This document shows positions 2,896 to 13,573 of a stretch of 15,568 bases of DNA, one piece after another. Each line of letters begins with the position of its first letter. Position 1 is the first letter of the stretch. Location of the stretch: positions 1 to 15,568 of the forward strand of contig CALBKR010000413.1 in assembly GCA_937896105.1 (NCBI GenBank), in the 5' to 3' direction. The stretch comes from an uncultured Bacteroidales bacterium. Lineage in GTDB: Bacteria; Bacteroidota; Bacteroidia; Bacteroidales; Bacteroidaceae. The notes below the pieces were generated by a model, which was given only the letters and a program-made list of their open reading frames with translations, did not search any database and was not told the origin of the DNA. The position numbers were made by a program, and so were the translations under genes.

Positions 2896-3043
2896 TGGTA
2901 AAAATGGAATTCAGAGCAATGGTCTCAGCCAACATCGCGCTGTTGCTTCTGCATTAATTGTCCTGCCCCTAAGTCCCCTTAGCCCACGCGGCACCACTGA
3001 TGCGGTGCTTCGCGTGACCTATCGCTGTTCGTGCGCTCGAGCT
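2896..3043 (-). repeat. Intergenic region with a diverged copy of the hairpin repeat
   Basis: No gene is visible here. Read on the minus strand after the terminator of the second protease gene, the sequence (AGCTCGAGCGCACGAACAGC onward) resembles the 110-bp units elsewhere in the window in order and content, but it is strongly diverged. It contains an imperfect hairpin at 2985-3016 with arms CACGC-g-GCACC and GGTGC-ttc-GCGTG, which corresponds in position to the GCACG...CGTGC hairpin of the 110-bp unit. Homology is by eye and moderate. Confidence 0.45.
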
Positions 3044-3103
3044 ACTTGTAAAGTAAAAGAAATGGCGACCTTACGGCCGCCATTTTACTTTTACTTTACA
3101 AGT
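3044..3103 (-). terminator. Long bipartite hairpin/terminator overlapping the 3' end of the second M60 gene
   Basis: The outer stem is 16 perfect base pairs (ACTTGTAAAGTAAAAG at 3044-3059 with its complement at 3088-3103). The inner stem is 11 bp (3060-3070 with 3075-3085) with one G-U wobble, and a 2-nt bulge separates them. In minus-strand RNA the loop is GUAA, a GNRA tetraloop, and the inner stem is the same GGCGGCC/GGTCGCC hairpin seen after the gene at 7418-11239. The arm at 3088-3103 includes the Leu-Val-Lys codons and the stop. The T-rich stretch after the inner stem fits a terminator on the minus strand. Confidence 0.8.
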
Positions 3104-6100
3104 ACCTTTTTACCATTCTGGATAAAGATACCGCGTGTCGGGTTCTGTACTCTGCGGCCGCTGAGGTCGTAGATTGCACTGTTGCCGTCAGCCTCGGGAA
3201 GCACGCTCTCGATGCTTGTGATAATATCGGCAACCTCCTTGTTGGTCTCAATTAGAGCAATGTCGAGTCTCCAATATGTCTTGGTACTCGAAATGTTCAT
3301 ATATGTACCTGTATCGTAGATTGTCTTTCCGCCTGATGTCAGGAGCAAGCCTCCTGCCTTTGTGTCGTATGTGACGGTAACGGGCAGGTAATCCTCCTCG
3401 GCCGATGTGTGGATTTTGTTTGTACCGTTCTTGTACATAAATCCTTCGTTGCCGGCATTGTAAACCTTGTACTCTCCGGCCTTGCCTGTAGATGCAAAGC
3501 TCCACAGTGCATAGTCGTCGACCTCGTCCGTCATCGCTACACGGTCTTTGTTGCTTGCGGATGAACCGCTGAATATGCTTGCGAACTTATCGTTCTTGTT
3601 GCTTATGAGGTAGTACCAAACAACTCTATCGCCCTTTGTTGCAATAGGTGCTGTTACAATGTACTTGCCCTCGATGTCGGCAAGCTGCTTGCGCAGTGTG
3701 TTCACAAATTTCTGCGTCTCAAGAGTTGTGGCACCCTCCATTTTCTCTGAAACCTCGTAGTATGTATCCAGGAGGTTGAGAGCGTATGTGTTGAGGTTGT
3801 TGTCTTTTACAATGATGTTCTCGTTGAAGATGTTCATTGTCTGCAGGCTGTCAAGGTTCAGAACCTCAGTGATAACCATGTTAGCCTCGGTTGCAAGTTC
3901 ATTGAGTGTGTTCTTGTAGAACTCAGCCGAGTTGTCCTCTACAATATCTACTCTCCACAGGGAATTCTTGTCGCTCACAGCCACACCAAGAACGGTGCCT
4001 CCGCTTATACCAATCGCTACATCAGGATTTTCAACTTGTGTAAAAAGTACCCAACCGTCGGCATCGTATCCAACATTGAACTTAACAGCATCTTCCTGTT
4101 CTTTTGTTTCAGTAAACACGTTGCCGTTCATTCCGATATTTGTAATGTAATATCCGCTGGATACATTTTTCATATAGTACTCCCCGGCTTTTCCTGCATA
4201 TTCTATTACCCAGTTGATGTCTCCTTGGTTTTTTACAGCTGTAGCTGTGGGGTAACCGCCGTCAAGGTAAAGTCCTCTATCGGGAGCGACGGCTTTTCTT
4301 GCTGTGAATGTTGCAGCCTCCTTGATTAGGATACGGGCATTCTCATTTTCAATGACTCTATTGCGCTCATCATCAAGCAACATACTCCACTCTGCGTATG
4401 AATATTTGCTTGTGTCGCCGTTGTTCTTTGCTGCCAATGCCTCGTTGTAGATTGCCTCAAGGTCGGCAATTGCCTCGGGGTAGTAGTAGCCTACAATGGT
4501 ATTGCTTGTAGCCTTCTTGCCGATGATGGCTTTGGCATTCAAGAGCGAACCTTCGAGTGCAGCCAGCTGCATCTCCTCTGGGCCTTGTGATGCGTGTGGA
4601 ACAATATAGTCGGTACCGTCGGCCTGAGCTGCGACAACCTTCAGGTTTGCAGTCTCGGCGCTTGCAGGAATATTCATCTCCTTTCTGTTTGTGAAAGAGA
4701 GCAGTTCGCCTGTGTCGGCATTGTAGAGCTTGAAACCGAGTGCGCCGCTTGCGCCTTCAGCCTCCTTGATTATTACCTTGCCTTTTGAAACGGCGTAGTA
4801 GTAACCCTGTGCCTTTACTGTCTCGTCGATGTAATCCATCCACTGTCCAAAATCACCAACCTCGCCAACGCGCTCTCCATCCCAGTCGGCATAGTTCGCA
4901 CGATAGCCTGTACCGTCGCAGAATGGGCTCTCCTTCCTTGGTGACTTGCGCACGCGGTCCTCGAGGAACATCAGGTGACCACCCTTCTTCTCATACTTCT
5001 GCATACGCGCCTTGCTTGCCTTGGCATCCTCCTCGAGCAGGTAAACCCAGTGGTGTCCATAGTCTCCTACAAAGCCGTTCTTGAATGGGATGAAGAAACC
5101 CCAAGCCTCGAAGAACTCGCTAAGGTCCATCTGCAGAATCTCGCAGCACGCCTCGGCGAATTTCAGTTGGTCATTAAGTGCATTTACAGAGTTCTTGTAG
5201 AAACCGTTTTCGTCCATCTCGTCCCTAGAACCTACGCTCCAGCCTACAAGGCGGTCATAGCGGAGCTTCTCGAACAGGCGTGGGTAGAAATCTGGGCATT
5301 TGCCGGCAGCGTGTGCATAGAGGAACAGCTGGAAGTACATACGTGTCATACTGAACAGTTTTGTTCCATATTGCCCTTCACCGCGCAATACATAAGGCAC
5401 CTTGTTCTCGAAGTCGAGAATCTGGTTATTCATATTGTTACCACGGCTCACGTGTGTACCCTGGTCAAAAATTGCAAAGTTTGTAAGCGCATTGTTACTT
5501 ACCTCGGATGTACCCACAATCTGGAACGCATACTGGTTGGTGTGGCCAATCTCGTGGTTAGGACCCCAAGAACTGCCGGCATCGGCAATAAGCAGGTCAT
5601 AGTTCACAATTGTGTTCAGAGTGTTGTTGTTGTAGTGAGTGCGGTATGCACTTGCGTCCATAAAGCCGTTGTCGTCACTCATAGCAAGCTGCTTGTTGTT
5701 TCTCCAAGCGTCATACTTGTCGAGAGCCATATAGTAGTTCTGACGGCTGTTCCAGAAATCCCAAAGACGCATAACACCCTCGATGTTGTCGGGGCACTCC
5801 TTGAGGAACTCGTATGTGCGGAAGTTGAGCACGGTAAGGTCACCGGCAGCCTGCAGCGCTGTGGGGTTCTTGAACATATTGTCGCGCATATACACCCAGT
5901 CCTCGTTGGTGTGGCCGCGCTCCTTGCTCCAGAAACCGTTCACGTAACCACCCTCGATATGTATCTTCACTGTAGGATAGTCGGCCAGTTTCTTGCCGTC
6001 GATAGCAGTCTCACAGACATAGCGGATGTAGAGCGAACCATCCTTGTTTGCACATGGAACAATGTTCAAGCCCTCCTTCAAAGGGGTGTCGTTTCCCCAG

Positions 6101-7024
6101 AACTTGGTGCTGGGCATCTCGGCAAGATCAATTGTAGTACCCTCGGGGATATCCTCTACAAACACATAGATAAAGCTCTTTGAGTCGCTTGTGCTTATAC
6201 CTGTAGGGTTGTTTATTAGCCAATGTGATACGGCGTGTCTGACCGCCACCCATTGACAGACCGGCCATACCGCGGTGAGCGGCATCGGTATATACACGGA
6301 ACTCCTTCTCGCGTGTAACGCTATCCCAAGCATTGTTCTTAATCTTGAGAACAGCCTGTTGCAAATCGGCAGGAACCCCCTCCAATGCAGCAACAACTTC
6401 GTCATCGCTCATTGCTGCATACTCGGCCTTGAGTATCGTGCAGGCATTGTCCTGGAACAGGTTCTCCACGGTAGCCTTTATTGTTGATGTGTTGTTGAGT
6501 GTTTTGCTGAAATCCTGATACTCAAGGTATGCAGCTGCCATCTCCTCCTCGGTAATGGCCACCTCTTCAAATATCCACTCTGTACCCGAAATCTCTTTAT
6601 CGCCGTAGCTCCAGGGTACAATGTTAGAGCTGCCGTCGCAGTGCATACCCCAGTTCTTTCCGGCTGTCAGGTCTATGTTGTAATGTCCTTTAAGTTTTTC
6701 ATTTTCCGTTACAGCAAACTGTGTCTCGGAGAGGCCTGTCTTCCACTGTACGTTGCGGCCGGCCTCGTATTGCACGTAGCGCTGTGTGTACACGTTCCGG
6801 ATTGTGAAACGGCCATCTTCGGCGGCTGTGAATTTCCACATCTCTTGATAGCTCTTTTCATCGCCTTTGGGTGCGCAGGAAAGGGTGTTCATTATCGGGC
6901 TTTCCGACATTACACTGCCGTACTTGCTGCTCACGATGCGATAAACCTTTCCGTTCTCAACCTGTGCCATTGCAAAGGTTGTCAGCATTACAAGGAATGC
7001 TGTGAGTAAAGATTTCAGTTTCAT
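3091..7024 (-). pseudogene. Frameshifted secreted M60-family metallopeptidase (about 1311 codons)
   Basis: The first reading frame (7024 to 6128, 298 aa) has a signal peptide (residues 1-20, ending Ala-Met-Ala), a beta-trefoil-like module (about 22-155) and the start of the M60 region up to Arg-Glu-Lys-Glu-Phe-Arg-Val (238-244). The second frame, open to 3091, resumes the M60 match at Asn-Asn-Pro-Thr-Gly-Ile (about 6213 downward). It carries HEIGH (codons at about 5542-5556) with Glu 13 residues later, a FIVAR-like helical segment, two more beta-rich modules and a tail ending KKVLVK. The span of 3934 nt is not a multiple of three. Between the frames, 6211-6292 encodes an esterase-like segment foreign to M60 proteins. 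As written, translation gives a 298-aa product without the catalytic site. ATGs at the head of the second frame (from 6405) overlap the first frame antiparallel in register only and give no signal peptide, so I do not take them as starts. A paralog lies at 47-2761. An assembly error remains possible. Confidence 0.85.
6211..6292 (-). other. 82-nt patch encoding an alpha/beta-hydrolase (PF00756-type esterase) nucleophile elbow inside the M60 gene
   Basis: In the upstream frame this stretch reads Tyr-Thr-Asp-Ala-Ala-His-Arg followed by GMAGLSMGGGQT and Arg-Arg-Ile-Thr-Leu-Ala-Asn-Lys. GLSMGG with the preceding His-Arg and following Gln-Thr is the Gly-x-Ser-x-Gly elbow typical of feruloyl/acetyl-xylan-type esterases in Bacteroidales. 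The M60 paralog has 25 unrelated residues at this place (from Ala-Glu-Tyr-Glu-Pro-Tyr to Tyr-Leu-Gln). M60 identity is clear on both sides: Phe-Arg-Val before, Asn-Pro-Thr-Gly-Ile after. The replacement is 82 nt against 75 in the paralog, which causes the frameshift. The junctions fall at plausible short homologies (codons for Phe-Arg-Val; GCTAATAAAC). Confidence 0.75.
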
Positions 7025-11239: not shown

Positions 11240-11257
11240 TTGACTAAAAGCTATATG

Positions 11258-11290
11258 AAAAATGGCGGCCGCAAGGTCGCCATTTTTTTT
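11258..11290 (+). terminator. Intrinsic terminator of the large secreted-protein gene
   Basis: Stem 11258-11270 pairs with 11275-11287 around a GCAA (GNRA) tetraloop, and it runs into eight T residues (11283-11290). It lies 18 nt after the stop. The GGCGGCC/GGTCGCC core is the same as in the hairpin behind the second M60 gene. Eight bases spanning the last Lys codon and stop (TTAAGTAA, 11232-11239) are complementary to 11289-11296, so the outer stem again reaches into the coding end. Confidence 0.9.
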
Positions 11291-11304
11291 ACTTAATAAG
11301 CAGC

Positions 11305-11524
11305 TCAAGGTTTCTCAAACAAGTAATTGACCAAAAGCTCGATGAGCGAGCTGCAATAGTCGCGAGCAGCACGGGCAAAGCTCGTGCCTCGCGGGTTGCG
11401 GCAAGCGAGCGAAATCAAGGTTTTTCAAACGAGTAATTGACCAAAAGCTCGATGAGCGAGCAGCAATAGTCGCGAGCAGCATGGGCAAAGCTCGTGCCTC
11501 GCGGGTTGCGGCAAGCGAGCGAAA
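11305..11524 (+). repeat. Two tandem copies of a 110-bp hairpin-rich repeat
   Basis: Units 11305-11414 and 11415-11524 differ at only about four positions. Each begins TCAAGGTTT, has a CAAGTAATTGACCAAAAGCT-like block resembling the 3' end of the M60 gene at 47 plus its downstream bases, and then three small hairpins: AGCTCG-atgag-CGAGCT, GCACG...CGTGC, and CTCGC...GCGAG. No reading frame is shared between the copies. Further copies are at 1-60 (inverted in the window) and, diverged, at 2896-3043. The pattern is that of a REP/BIME-like intergenic element. Confidence 0.9.
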
Positions 11525-11600
11525 TCAAGGTTTCTCAATCAAGTAATTGACGAAAAGCTATATGAAAAATGGCGACCGCAAGGTCGCCATTTTTTTTACT
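11525..11600 (+). repeat. Third, truncated repeat unit joined to a duplicate of the terminator block
   Basis: The third unit starts in phase at 11525 but after about 34 nt switches to a copy of the sequence that follows the stop at 11239. The block from 11541 repeats the block from 11234 at an offset of 307 bp for about 60 nt with two or three differences. The two 110-bp units are thus bracketed by two copies of the gene-end/terminator block. Confidence 0.85.
11565..11597 (+). terminator. Second copy of the GNRA-loop terminator
   Basis: Stem 11565-11577 pairs with 11582-11594 around GCAA and is followed by a T-run to 11597. Compared with 11258-11290 it has GGCGACC in place of GGCGGCC, which turns the G-U wobble into an A-U pair, so pairing is kept. 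What follows (ACTTTACAAG) resembles the outer arm at the end of the second M60 gene rather than that at 11291. Confidence 0.85.
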
Positions 11601-11637
11601 TTACAAGCAGCATCGCAACCCCTCACTCCTTACGGAC

Positions 11638-11832: not shown

Positions 11833-12105
11833 TTACTCTTCAACCAACTCCATCTCCTTCCAGCGCTCGATGATGGCACAGCAATCCTCGCGTGCGATGC
11901 TCTCCTCGACCTCATACTCGTCGAGCAGCAGCTTCACCAAGTCCTCAACGGTGAAATCGCCCTTGCCGGCAACGCCCTCCCACAGGTAGGCCGCCGTTTC
12001 GTTAAGGCTGATAATCTTGCTGTAATCCACGTTGTCTGCTCCGGCAGGGACAATGATGTGCTCGCCGCATACGTTCTGTATCTCAAATCCTTCTTTAATC
12101 TTCAT
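11833..12105 (-). CDS. PqqD-family (RRE-fold) protein, 90 aa
   Basis: The size and pattern fit the PqqD family (PF05402), small winged-helix proteins that bind leader peptides for RiPP-modifying enzymes or act as chaperones. Visible features are an N-terminal beta segment (residues 1-20), the Ile-Ile-Ser-Leu-Asn-Glu-Thr-Ala-Ala-Tyr-Leu-Trp block (31-42), which is the most typical PqqD stretch, a Thr-Val-Glu-Asp-Leu-Val helix (52-60) and a closing helix with Glu-Glu at the end. It is the last gene of a minus-strand operon, 17 nt after the S26-like gene. No PQQ genes, radical SAM enzyme or precursor are visible nearby, so a PQQ role is not implied. Related proteins accompany HprK-related kinases in Bacteroidetes and proteobacterial loci, which fits here. 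Confidence 0.85.
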   Translation of the reverse strand: MKIKEGFEIQNVCGEHIIVPAGADNVDYSKIISLNETAAYLWEGVAGKGDFTVEDLVKLLLDEYEVEESIAREDCCAIIERWKEMELVEE

Positions 12106-12122
12106 AATCGTATTGTTTTATA

Positions 12123-12584
12123 TTATAATCTTCGGTATATTGCCAATAATATGCGCCTCAGCGGTTTGAGAGCCTCCCACGTTGCCGAGTACCAACGCCA
12201 TTTGCGGCTGCCGATGCTCACCGGCTTGCCCTTGCGGATGAAACCGTCGGCAAGGCCTATTATCTTGTCGCTTGTGAACTGCTCGGTCATACTCAACGGG
12301 TTGCCGTCGCCGCGCATAGTGTATGTGCCGTTGTCATCAATCCTTATTACCCTGTGCAGGGCGTATGTGCGTTCGCGCACCTCGGCAAGCACCACATCGC
12401 CCTTCTTGGGCGGGCGTGGGGGAGTGAGGATGACCTTGTCTCGTCCATCCTCGAGAAAAGGACGCATACTGTAACCGCGCACCACGAATGTCACGCTCTT
12501 CTTTCCCTGTTGGCGGAACATACGGGTTATCTCCTGCATAAACAGGTGGTTGTCGACCTTTTTCTGTGTAACGCCGCTTGTCAT
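12123..12584 (-). CDS. S24/S26-like (signal-peptidase-fold) Ser/His/Asp peptidase, 153 aa
   Basis: The frame is open further upstream, but the start is set at the ATG at 12582-12584. It overlaps the stop of the kinase gene as ATGA, and the family match begins after it. Ser39 lies in Gly-Tyr-Ser-Met-Arg-Pro-Phe, the signal-peptidase box B. Gly-Asp-Val-Val-Leu-Ala (62-67) and Leu-His-Arg-Val-Ile (76-80) follow, with His77 where classical SPase I has Lys. Asp93 is in Met-Arg-Gly-Asp-Gly-Asn. A Ser-His-Asp set is the pattern of the S26B/ER (Sec11/SipW) type. No N-terminal membrane segment is visible, unlike true signal peptidases; the C-terminus (131-153) is basic and amphipathic. It could be a soluble processing protease acting with the PqqD-like protein, or a non-catalytic regulator. 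Its role is inferred from the operon only. Confidence 0.85.
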   Translation of the reverse strand: MTSGVTQKKVDNHLFMQEITRMFRQQGKKSVTFVVRGYSMRPFLEDGRDKVILTPPRPPKKGDVVLAEVRERTYALHRVIRIDDNGTYTMRGDGNPLSMTEQFTSDKIIGLADGFIRKGKPVSIGSRKWRWYSATWEALKPLRRILLAIYRRL

Positions 12585-13453
12585 ACTCCGAATGTGCTGC
12601 TCGATAGCTTGGCTGCCTCTTCGTCGGGACGGCAGAAGAGTGTGTACAGCGGCAGGCGTTCGAGCACTTTTGTTATGGTGCTGCAGATGAATATGTGTAT
12701 CTCTTTGTCGAATTTTAGCGTGGAGCAGGAGCATAGCATTATTCCGAAGGCTGTGGGGATGCTCTCCTTGCGTATCCAGTTCTTCTTGTCCTGCTCGATG
12801 GCTGCCAGTCCGCCGATGGGGTAGCTGACATCCTTGTATATGGGGCGTTTGCCGCTCCAGGGCGAGCCGTAGACAATGGGTGTACCGTCGTCGGCAATGC
12901 GTATCACGGGGTTGTCGTCGTTGATGAGCGTGCTGCCCGGGATGTGTTCGACCCATTTGTTGCTGTGGGTGCTCTTGCCTTGGCCGCTTGCTCCAAGGAA
13001 CATATATCCTTTACCGCCGTTCTCTACTGTTGCCGAGTGCATAAGCAATGTCTTGTGCGGTGCTGTACACATTGTGAAGACGACCATTAGTGTGTTGTTG
13101 AGCCCGAAGACCCTGTCGCTCGTGTTGCCACGGGTGGTCAATGAGAAATGGCGTCGCTCCCCATCACTCTGGACAAAAGCGCAGGGGGTGCCGAATTCAT
13201 TCATCGTCAGTATCTGGTATGCTCCGCTCTCCTGACGGTAGACCTCGAACTTTGCGCTGGGGCAGGGGAAGGTGCCGATGCGGTTGCCGCACCACGATGG
13301 GATGATGCTGTTGTCGACTGTCAGCTCGAACAGCAGGTCGGCGGCAGTTTCGCGCTCAAAAGGCGAGAGGTTCGGCAGCAACTCTAATATGTCGTCCTCG
13401 GTAGTGGTGATGGCGAAATTGTGCCCGGCAACGGTGAAATATCTCTTTTGCAT
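12581..13453 (-). CDS. HprK-related kinase (HPr kinase/phosphorylase-like), 290 aa
   Basis: The Walker A motif GASGQGKST is at 154-162 after Leu-Leu-Met-His-Ser-Ala (136-141), the usual HprK-core lead-in. Asn-Asp-Asp-Asn-Pro (178-182) and Tyr-Gly-Ser-Pro-Trp-Ser-Gly-Lys (195-202) follow, both typical of HprK-related proteins found beside PqqD-like genes. The N-terminal 120 residues are a beta-rich domain I do not recognise. The ATG at 13453 is preferred over the longer open frame (to 13546) because the upstream stretch is Cys/Pro-rich, low in family-like sequence, and overlaps the predicted promoter. It is the first gene of the operon. HPr itself is unlikely to be the target, as the C-terminal HPr-contact region of true HprK is not evident. 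A peptide or protein substrate handled by the PqqD-like partner is plausible but not shown. Confidence 0.85.
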   Translation of the reverse strand: MQKRYFTVAGHNFAITTTEDDILELLPNLSPFERETAADLLFELTVDNSIIPSWCGNRIGTFPCPSAKFEVYRQESGAYQILTMNEFGTPCAFVQSDGERRHFSLTTRGNTSDRVFGLNNTLMVVFTMCTAPHKTLLMHSATVENGGKGYMFLGASGQGKSTHSNKWVEHIPGSTLINDDNPVIRIADDGTPIVYGSPWSGKRPIYKDVSYPIGGLAAIEQDKKNWIRKESIPTAFGIMLCSCSTLKFDKEIHIFICSTITKVLERLPLYTLFCRPDEEAAKLSSSTFGV

Positions 13454-13543
13454 ACAATGTGGTTGGCTCTTATATGTGTGGTTCTTGGGGTTATGCGGCA
13501 GCTTGCATCCTGTCGGTGGTTTGCTGCCACTGCAATTAAGTTG

Positions 13544-13573
13544 CAAATTTATAAAAAAGGATTAAATATTCAA
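13544..13573 (-). promoter_or_regulatory. Promoter of the kinase-peptidase-PqqD operon
   Basis: On the minus strand TTG (complement of 13571-13573) is followed after exactly 19 nt by TAAATTTG (complement of 13544-13551), a full match to the Bacteroidetes consensus. The leader would be about 85 nt to the ATG at 13453, which also argues against the longer start at 13546. Confidence 0.7.

Follow-up and report, generated by a model that had tools for sequence, protein, structure and literature searches.

We identified, in the window (the whole stretch of 15,568 nucleotides that was analysed), an M60 peptidase gene that contains a short piece of a PF00756 esterase gene and that on balance appears to have been inactivated, in one strain of an uncultured Bacteroidaceae bacterium, by a recent short-patch replacement. 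The evidence for this patch is one assembled contig. In profile searches the downstream ORF of the interrupted gene matched PF13402 (E 1.3e-18, 68 bits against a cut-off of 25.8) and PF18630 (E 8.7e-08), and the 5' ORF reached 22.3 bits with RicinB_lectin_2, below the cut-off of 25.6 for that profile; we take the encoded protease to be of the host-glycoprotein type. Intact homologues have a length of about 1300 amino acids, and the frame break coincides with the 3' edge of the esterase-like patch (Table 1). The database protein P0121 is the window's own truncated product, and its cluster, with two member sequences and one contig, is not proof of an independent copy. Its contig has the same length as the window (15,568 bases), which is therefore probably a complete contig.

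Table 1. Positions of the interrupted M60 gene, the patch with its seams, and neighbouring features in the window.
Feature	Position	Strand	Basis or remark
M60 (enhancin-like) peptidase gene, interrupted	3091..7024	minus	ORFs, Pfam profiles, intact homologues
M60 gene, 5' part (ORF)	6128-7024	minus	frame differs from that of the catalytic-part ORF
M60 gene, catalytic part (ORF)	3091-6405	minus	frame differs from that of the 5'-part ORF
Anchor, 21 bases, encodes EKEFRVY, common to M60 and esterase genes	6290..6310	minus	left seam
Esterase-matching patch, nucleophile elbow region, 75 bases	6215..6289	minus	DNA match to PF00756 esterase genes
Right seam, 2-base overlap; M60 resumes (from 6216) out of frame	6215..6216	minus	coordinates, 10-mer test
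Out-of-frame tail of the truncated product, up to the stop	6128..6214	minus	ORF reading
Inverted repeats, 50-53 bases, 94-96%	1-53; 11320-11372; 11432-11481		edges of the inverted block
PqqD-like protein (PF05402), S24-like peptidase (PF00717), third protein without Pfam match	11833-13546		

The patch encodes the elbow peptide TDAAHRGMAGLSMGGGQTRRITLAN on the minus strand; its reading frame is that of the upstream M60 part and differs from that of the downstream part. The first-pass annotation had described a PF00756-type esterase elbow within the M60 gene, in the upstream but not the downstream frame, and both descriptions were borne out, the former by a match of 93 of 96 bases to a PF00756 esterase gene (PF00756 E 1.2e-22) and the latter by ORF reading. 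The limits that it gave to the patch, 6211-6292, had to be narrowed to 6215-6289, the excess consisting of three anchor bases and four M60 bases. Over anchor and patch together (96 bases), the window differs from the esterase gene L024 of genome G154 at three positions, all of them silent, and the likeness of the patch to an esterase is therefore not due to chance. As the final two bases of the patch also fit M60, 73 bases replace approximately 66 bases of the intact gene; the interval from EKEFRVY to NPTG measures 79 bases in the window versus 72 in the intact allele (24 residues in protein P0001), all by hand count.

The unpatched state of this gene was observed in relatives. A search for M60 homologues gave 863 matches, the best 120 of which were examined. 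P0001, an intact allele that was compared as protein, is identical to the window at 245 of 245 residues before the patch site and at 1034 of 1040 after it, so that M60 similarity does extend up to both edges of the patch, as had been stated at first. It carries EKEFRVY, then 24 residues, then NPTG, which are ordinary M60 residues at the patch site. Because P0001 is near-identical on both flanks and intact at this site, we conclude that an intact allele is present in the same species. The first-pass annotation had used the paralog as its reference for the content of the site; in the ortholog P0001, EKEFRVY and NPTG are 24 residues apart. The normal site motif was present in each of the best 120 of the 863 homologues, among which all five with at least 93% identity were intact. 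The SMGG elbow core was present in none of these best 120 of 863, which answers the question, raised at the outset, of whether the elbow residues are a normal part of related M60 proteins: they are not. Within the recipient genus, the M60 query matched 40 of 44 genomes at E<=1e-20, and the 18 rows that began at residue 1, reached residue 990 or beyond and were at least 50% identical contained no internal stop.

A 90-base query matched 45 of 201 sampled family genomes at E<=0.001, the best match being 98% over 82 bases. The gene at this best match, L024, encodes a PF00756 esterase of approximately 388 residues (with the start picked by hand) that reads IEKEFRVYTDAAHRGMAGLSMGGGQTRRITLANPTK; its ORF scored 81.3 bits with PF00756, and that of L025 81.7 bits, the cut-off being 22. 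Among 13 esterase ORFs compared over the 96 bases, L024 had three differences, L054 and L025 had four, and L026 (the same gene as L055) and L056 had five, all silent, and the other seven had 8 to 19, with non-silent changes in five of the seven. The 32-residue peptide from EKEFRVY to LAN has exact copies in 11 database esterases among the matches listed (P0129-P0139). When 399 family genomes were sampled, 13 of the 15 matches at E<=1e-15 fell within one genus of 37 genomes, and the two outside it had identities of 78% and 81%. The folP-cdaA DNA of the recipient shares 77% identity with G005 and 74-75% with G001-G004, and 36 of the 44 genomes of that genus matched it, versus fragments only, at 65-77%, in nine donor-genus genomes; this comparison places the recipient in a genus other than that of the donor. 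In the genomes of L024 and L025, both of the donor genus, the elbow region has further DNA matches that are weaker than the best one, and several related esterase genes per donor-genus genome are therefore likely.

Each gene was also searched for in the genus of the other. The esterase query gave one match at E<=1e-20 in the 44 sampled draft genomes of the recipient genus, partial and 35% identical, and the M60 query gave no match in the 37 donor-genus genomes, the same query having matched most genomes of the recipient genus. Because these genomes are drafts and may be incomplete, absence from them is no proof. A DNA search for a donor among the L001-L007 genomes found matches that were short or weak, at best 35 bases at 83%, and plasmid records gave no match. 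L008 and L009, elbow-containing ORFs from two of the L001-L007 genomes, were considered as donors and rejected, as they are other esterases.

At the left seam, we observed that M60 and esterase genes encode EKEFRVY independently, with NPT following 24 residues later in both (P0001 and L024, by hand count). This independent coding is new here, as is the observation that 21 identical bases can occur at this seam between unpatched genes from both genera. The unpatched M60 gene of L005 and the esterase gene of L025 are identical at 21 bases of the anchor, and the other 24 pairs (M60 genes of L001-L005 with the esterases L024, L025, L026, L054 and L058) have 14-16 identical bases there. In each of these 25 pairs the anchor was the longest word in common, the words shared elsewhere being at most 14 bases long. 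This comparison covered six of the 13 esterase ORFs and six M60 genes (L001-L005 and L007, with L006 left out); for the sixth esterase, L056, the anchor was clearly the longest shared word in only one of five pairs, and the M60 gene of L007 had no word longer than 13 bases in common with any of the six esterases. With the anchor bases of the window taken as the recipient's, the left seam was undetectable at the word lengths tested, up to 23. The 10-mers of the right seam did not occur in the compared loci (loci, not whole genomes), and a k-mer assembler would thus need a read containing that seam. A search of viral_contigs gave no match to the 24-base right seam, which is a weak test, and none to the anchor with the start of the patch, a pattern that is native to esterases and hence no test of the seam.

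The explanation that we favor, with modest confidence and counting either kind of donor, is a real event in a living cell, namely a microhomology-anchored short-patch replacement. Because the left seam lies at the longest shared word, the right seam is nearly illegitimate, the patch is shorter than 100 bases and the donor looks foreign, this event would be either template switching or short-patch double illegitimate recombination (SPDIR), in the latter case with an anchor of unusual quality. We infer its occurrence in the cell, the source of the DNA, which was most likely a bacterium of another genus, and the order of the steps. Part of a PF00756 esterase gene, likely from that other genus, would reach the recipient in single-stranded form and pair with its M60 gene at the EKEFRVY codons, where up to 21 bases are identical, after which approximately 75 esterase bases would be copied or built in at the M60 locus. 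Rejoining at a 2-base match would then leave the small change in length that breaks the M60 frame. The steps may have consisted either of single-stranded DNA annealing at the fork or of a nascent strand switching template and back. ComEC-type proteins (PF03772), found in seven of seven relatives, would permit DNA uptake rather than demonstrate it, and since they were also found in 10 of 14 control genomes they lend weak support to the patch reading. A short templated replacement with microhomology had been proposed in the first-pass annotation, and this part of its proposal gained from the discovery of the donor family and from the left seam, which for five of six esterases coincides with the longest word in common. 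Gene conversion, which it had offered as an alternative, does not fit the 2-base right seam if it is to take place between homologous genes; homology on both sides of the tract, as gene conversion has, was not found, given shared words of at most 14 bases outside the anchor in the pairs compared.

SPDIR is known from experiments with Acinetobacter baylyi, as an in vivo event that is raised when RecA or single-strand DNA nucleases are missing. It (Harms et al. 2016) is named in PMC7192050 and cited in PMC6321871, and according to PMC7192050 a short heterologous segment, intragenomic or extragenomic, takes the place of chromosomal sequence, its ends having little homology. Likewise, in the contig as assembled, recipient sequence has given way to a short heterologous segment whose source can be identified. 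However, one end of the patch has an unusually long shared stretch compared with SPDIR microhomology (up to 21 bases at the left seam, if the wobble bases of the recipient are assumed, and two at the right), and the patch is known from a single assembled contig. Homology-facilitated illegitimate recombination (HFIR) is also named in PMC7192050 and appears in the reference lists of PMC8116780 and PMC13344027. As in HFIR, one joint lies in shared sequence and the other is illegitimate, with few bases. The anchor of HFIR, however, is homologous and much longer, unlike the chance stretch of 21 bases at most that we observed. The patch also resembles microhomology-mediated template switching (MMBIR/FoSTeS), in which another template is copied, with a return, at microhomologies, but differs from it in that these processes normally stay within one genome and the donor of the patch seems to come from outside the genus.

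The same seams would suit microhomology-mediated template switching within one genome as well as they suit foreign single-stranded DNA, and a strain might have copied an accessory esterase of its own, with the fork switching there and back. We consider this variant, the share of which is counted within our favored explanation, unlikely, given that the 44 genomes of the genus yielded the single partial match described above and the L001-L007 genomes only short DNA matches. The earlier suggestion that the donor lay elsewhere in the genome is likewise not supported, as the close matches are in another genus. That the elbow lends the M60 protein an esterase-like site is hardly credible: it shares its frame with the upstream part, but that frame breaks directly after the elbow, the M60 domain lies entirely in the other frame, and the remainder of the hydrolase fold is presumably missing.

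An artefact must be taken more seriously, and we judge it a real possibility, short of probable. A chimeric read or gap filling could have linked the M60 gene, via the shared 21 bases, to esterase reads from a co-resident species, with the gap then being closed arbitrarily. The nearest donors do sit in a different genus, the anchor is about as long as k=21, a common smallest k-mer of short-read assemblers, and the length of the interval is nearly kept, as a gap filler would do. All five of the closest homologues (those with at least 93% identity, among the best 120 of 863) are intact, which also counts in favor of an artefact. Moreover, an inverted repeat stands at the start of the contig, and its gene block has the opposite orientation to that in relatives, so that assembly choices may have been made here. 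Against this, the right seam comprises two bases and is missing from the compared loci even at k=10, which makes plain k-mer traversal an unlikely source and would leave at least one read or gap-filling step to blame. In addition, the two flanks belong to a single locus of one species, and an artefact would thus require two errors in a span of 100 bases, the second leading back to that locus.

If the short-patch replacement did occur, it would be a natural and apparently cross-genus event in uncultured gut bacteria, with an identified donor family and a plausible anchor in unpatched genes. Its signature, consisting of a scrap of an unrelated gene with one long and one short seam and a frame break, could be searched for in other genomes. 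We suggest, tentatively and with more doubt than belief, that gut bacteria swap scraps of less than 100 bases across genera where unrelated genes share approximately 20 bases, that conserved codon strings serve as landing sites, and that such patches may be common and overlooked as frameshifts. If the patch is instead an artefact, it would be a useful case of a 21-base word common to two species yielding a false mosaic gene.

The surroundings of the gene were also compared with relatives. L002, L004 and L005 have the order large protein (-), M60 (+), M60 paralog (+), PqqD, S24 and third protein (all -) and folP (+), and in L004 and L005 the sequence extends to cdaA (+) as well. In the window, the large protein, M60 and M60 paralog are inverted as a block relative to the rest, and L002, L004 and L005, the three relatives whose gene set is the same and for which both flanks were read, all differ from it in this respect. 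This block of approximately 11 kb, comprising the M60 paralog, M60 and a 1273-aa protein, either was inverted naturally or reflects a choice made in assembly at the repeat. In L006 the paralog is missing between M60 and PqqD, with M60 oriented as in the relatives, and L001, L003 and L007 stop short of the second flank. The genes for PqqD, S24 and the third protein, which is presumably HprK-like, have the same order in L002, L004, L005 and L006, and may form a small peptide-maturation cluster. Behind genes of the window there are three hairpin-like sequences (3036-3093, 11252-11309 and 11559-11611), 84-87% mutually complementary, which, judged by eye, look like terminators.
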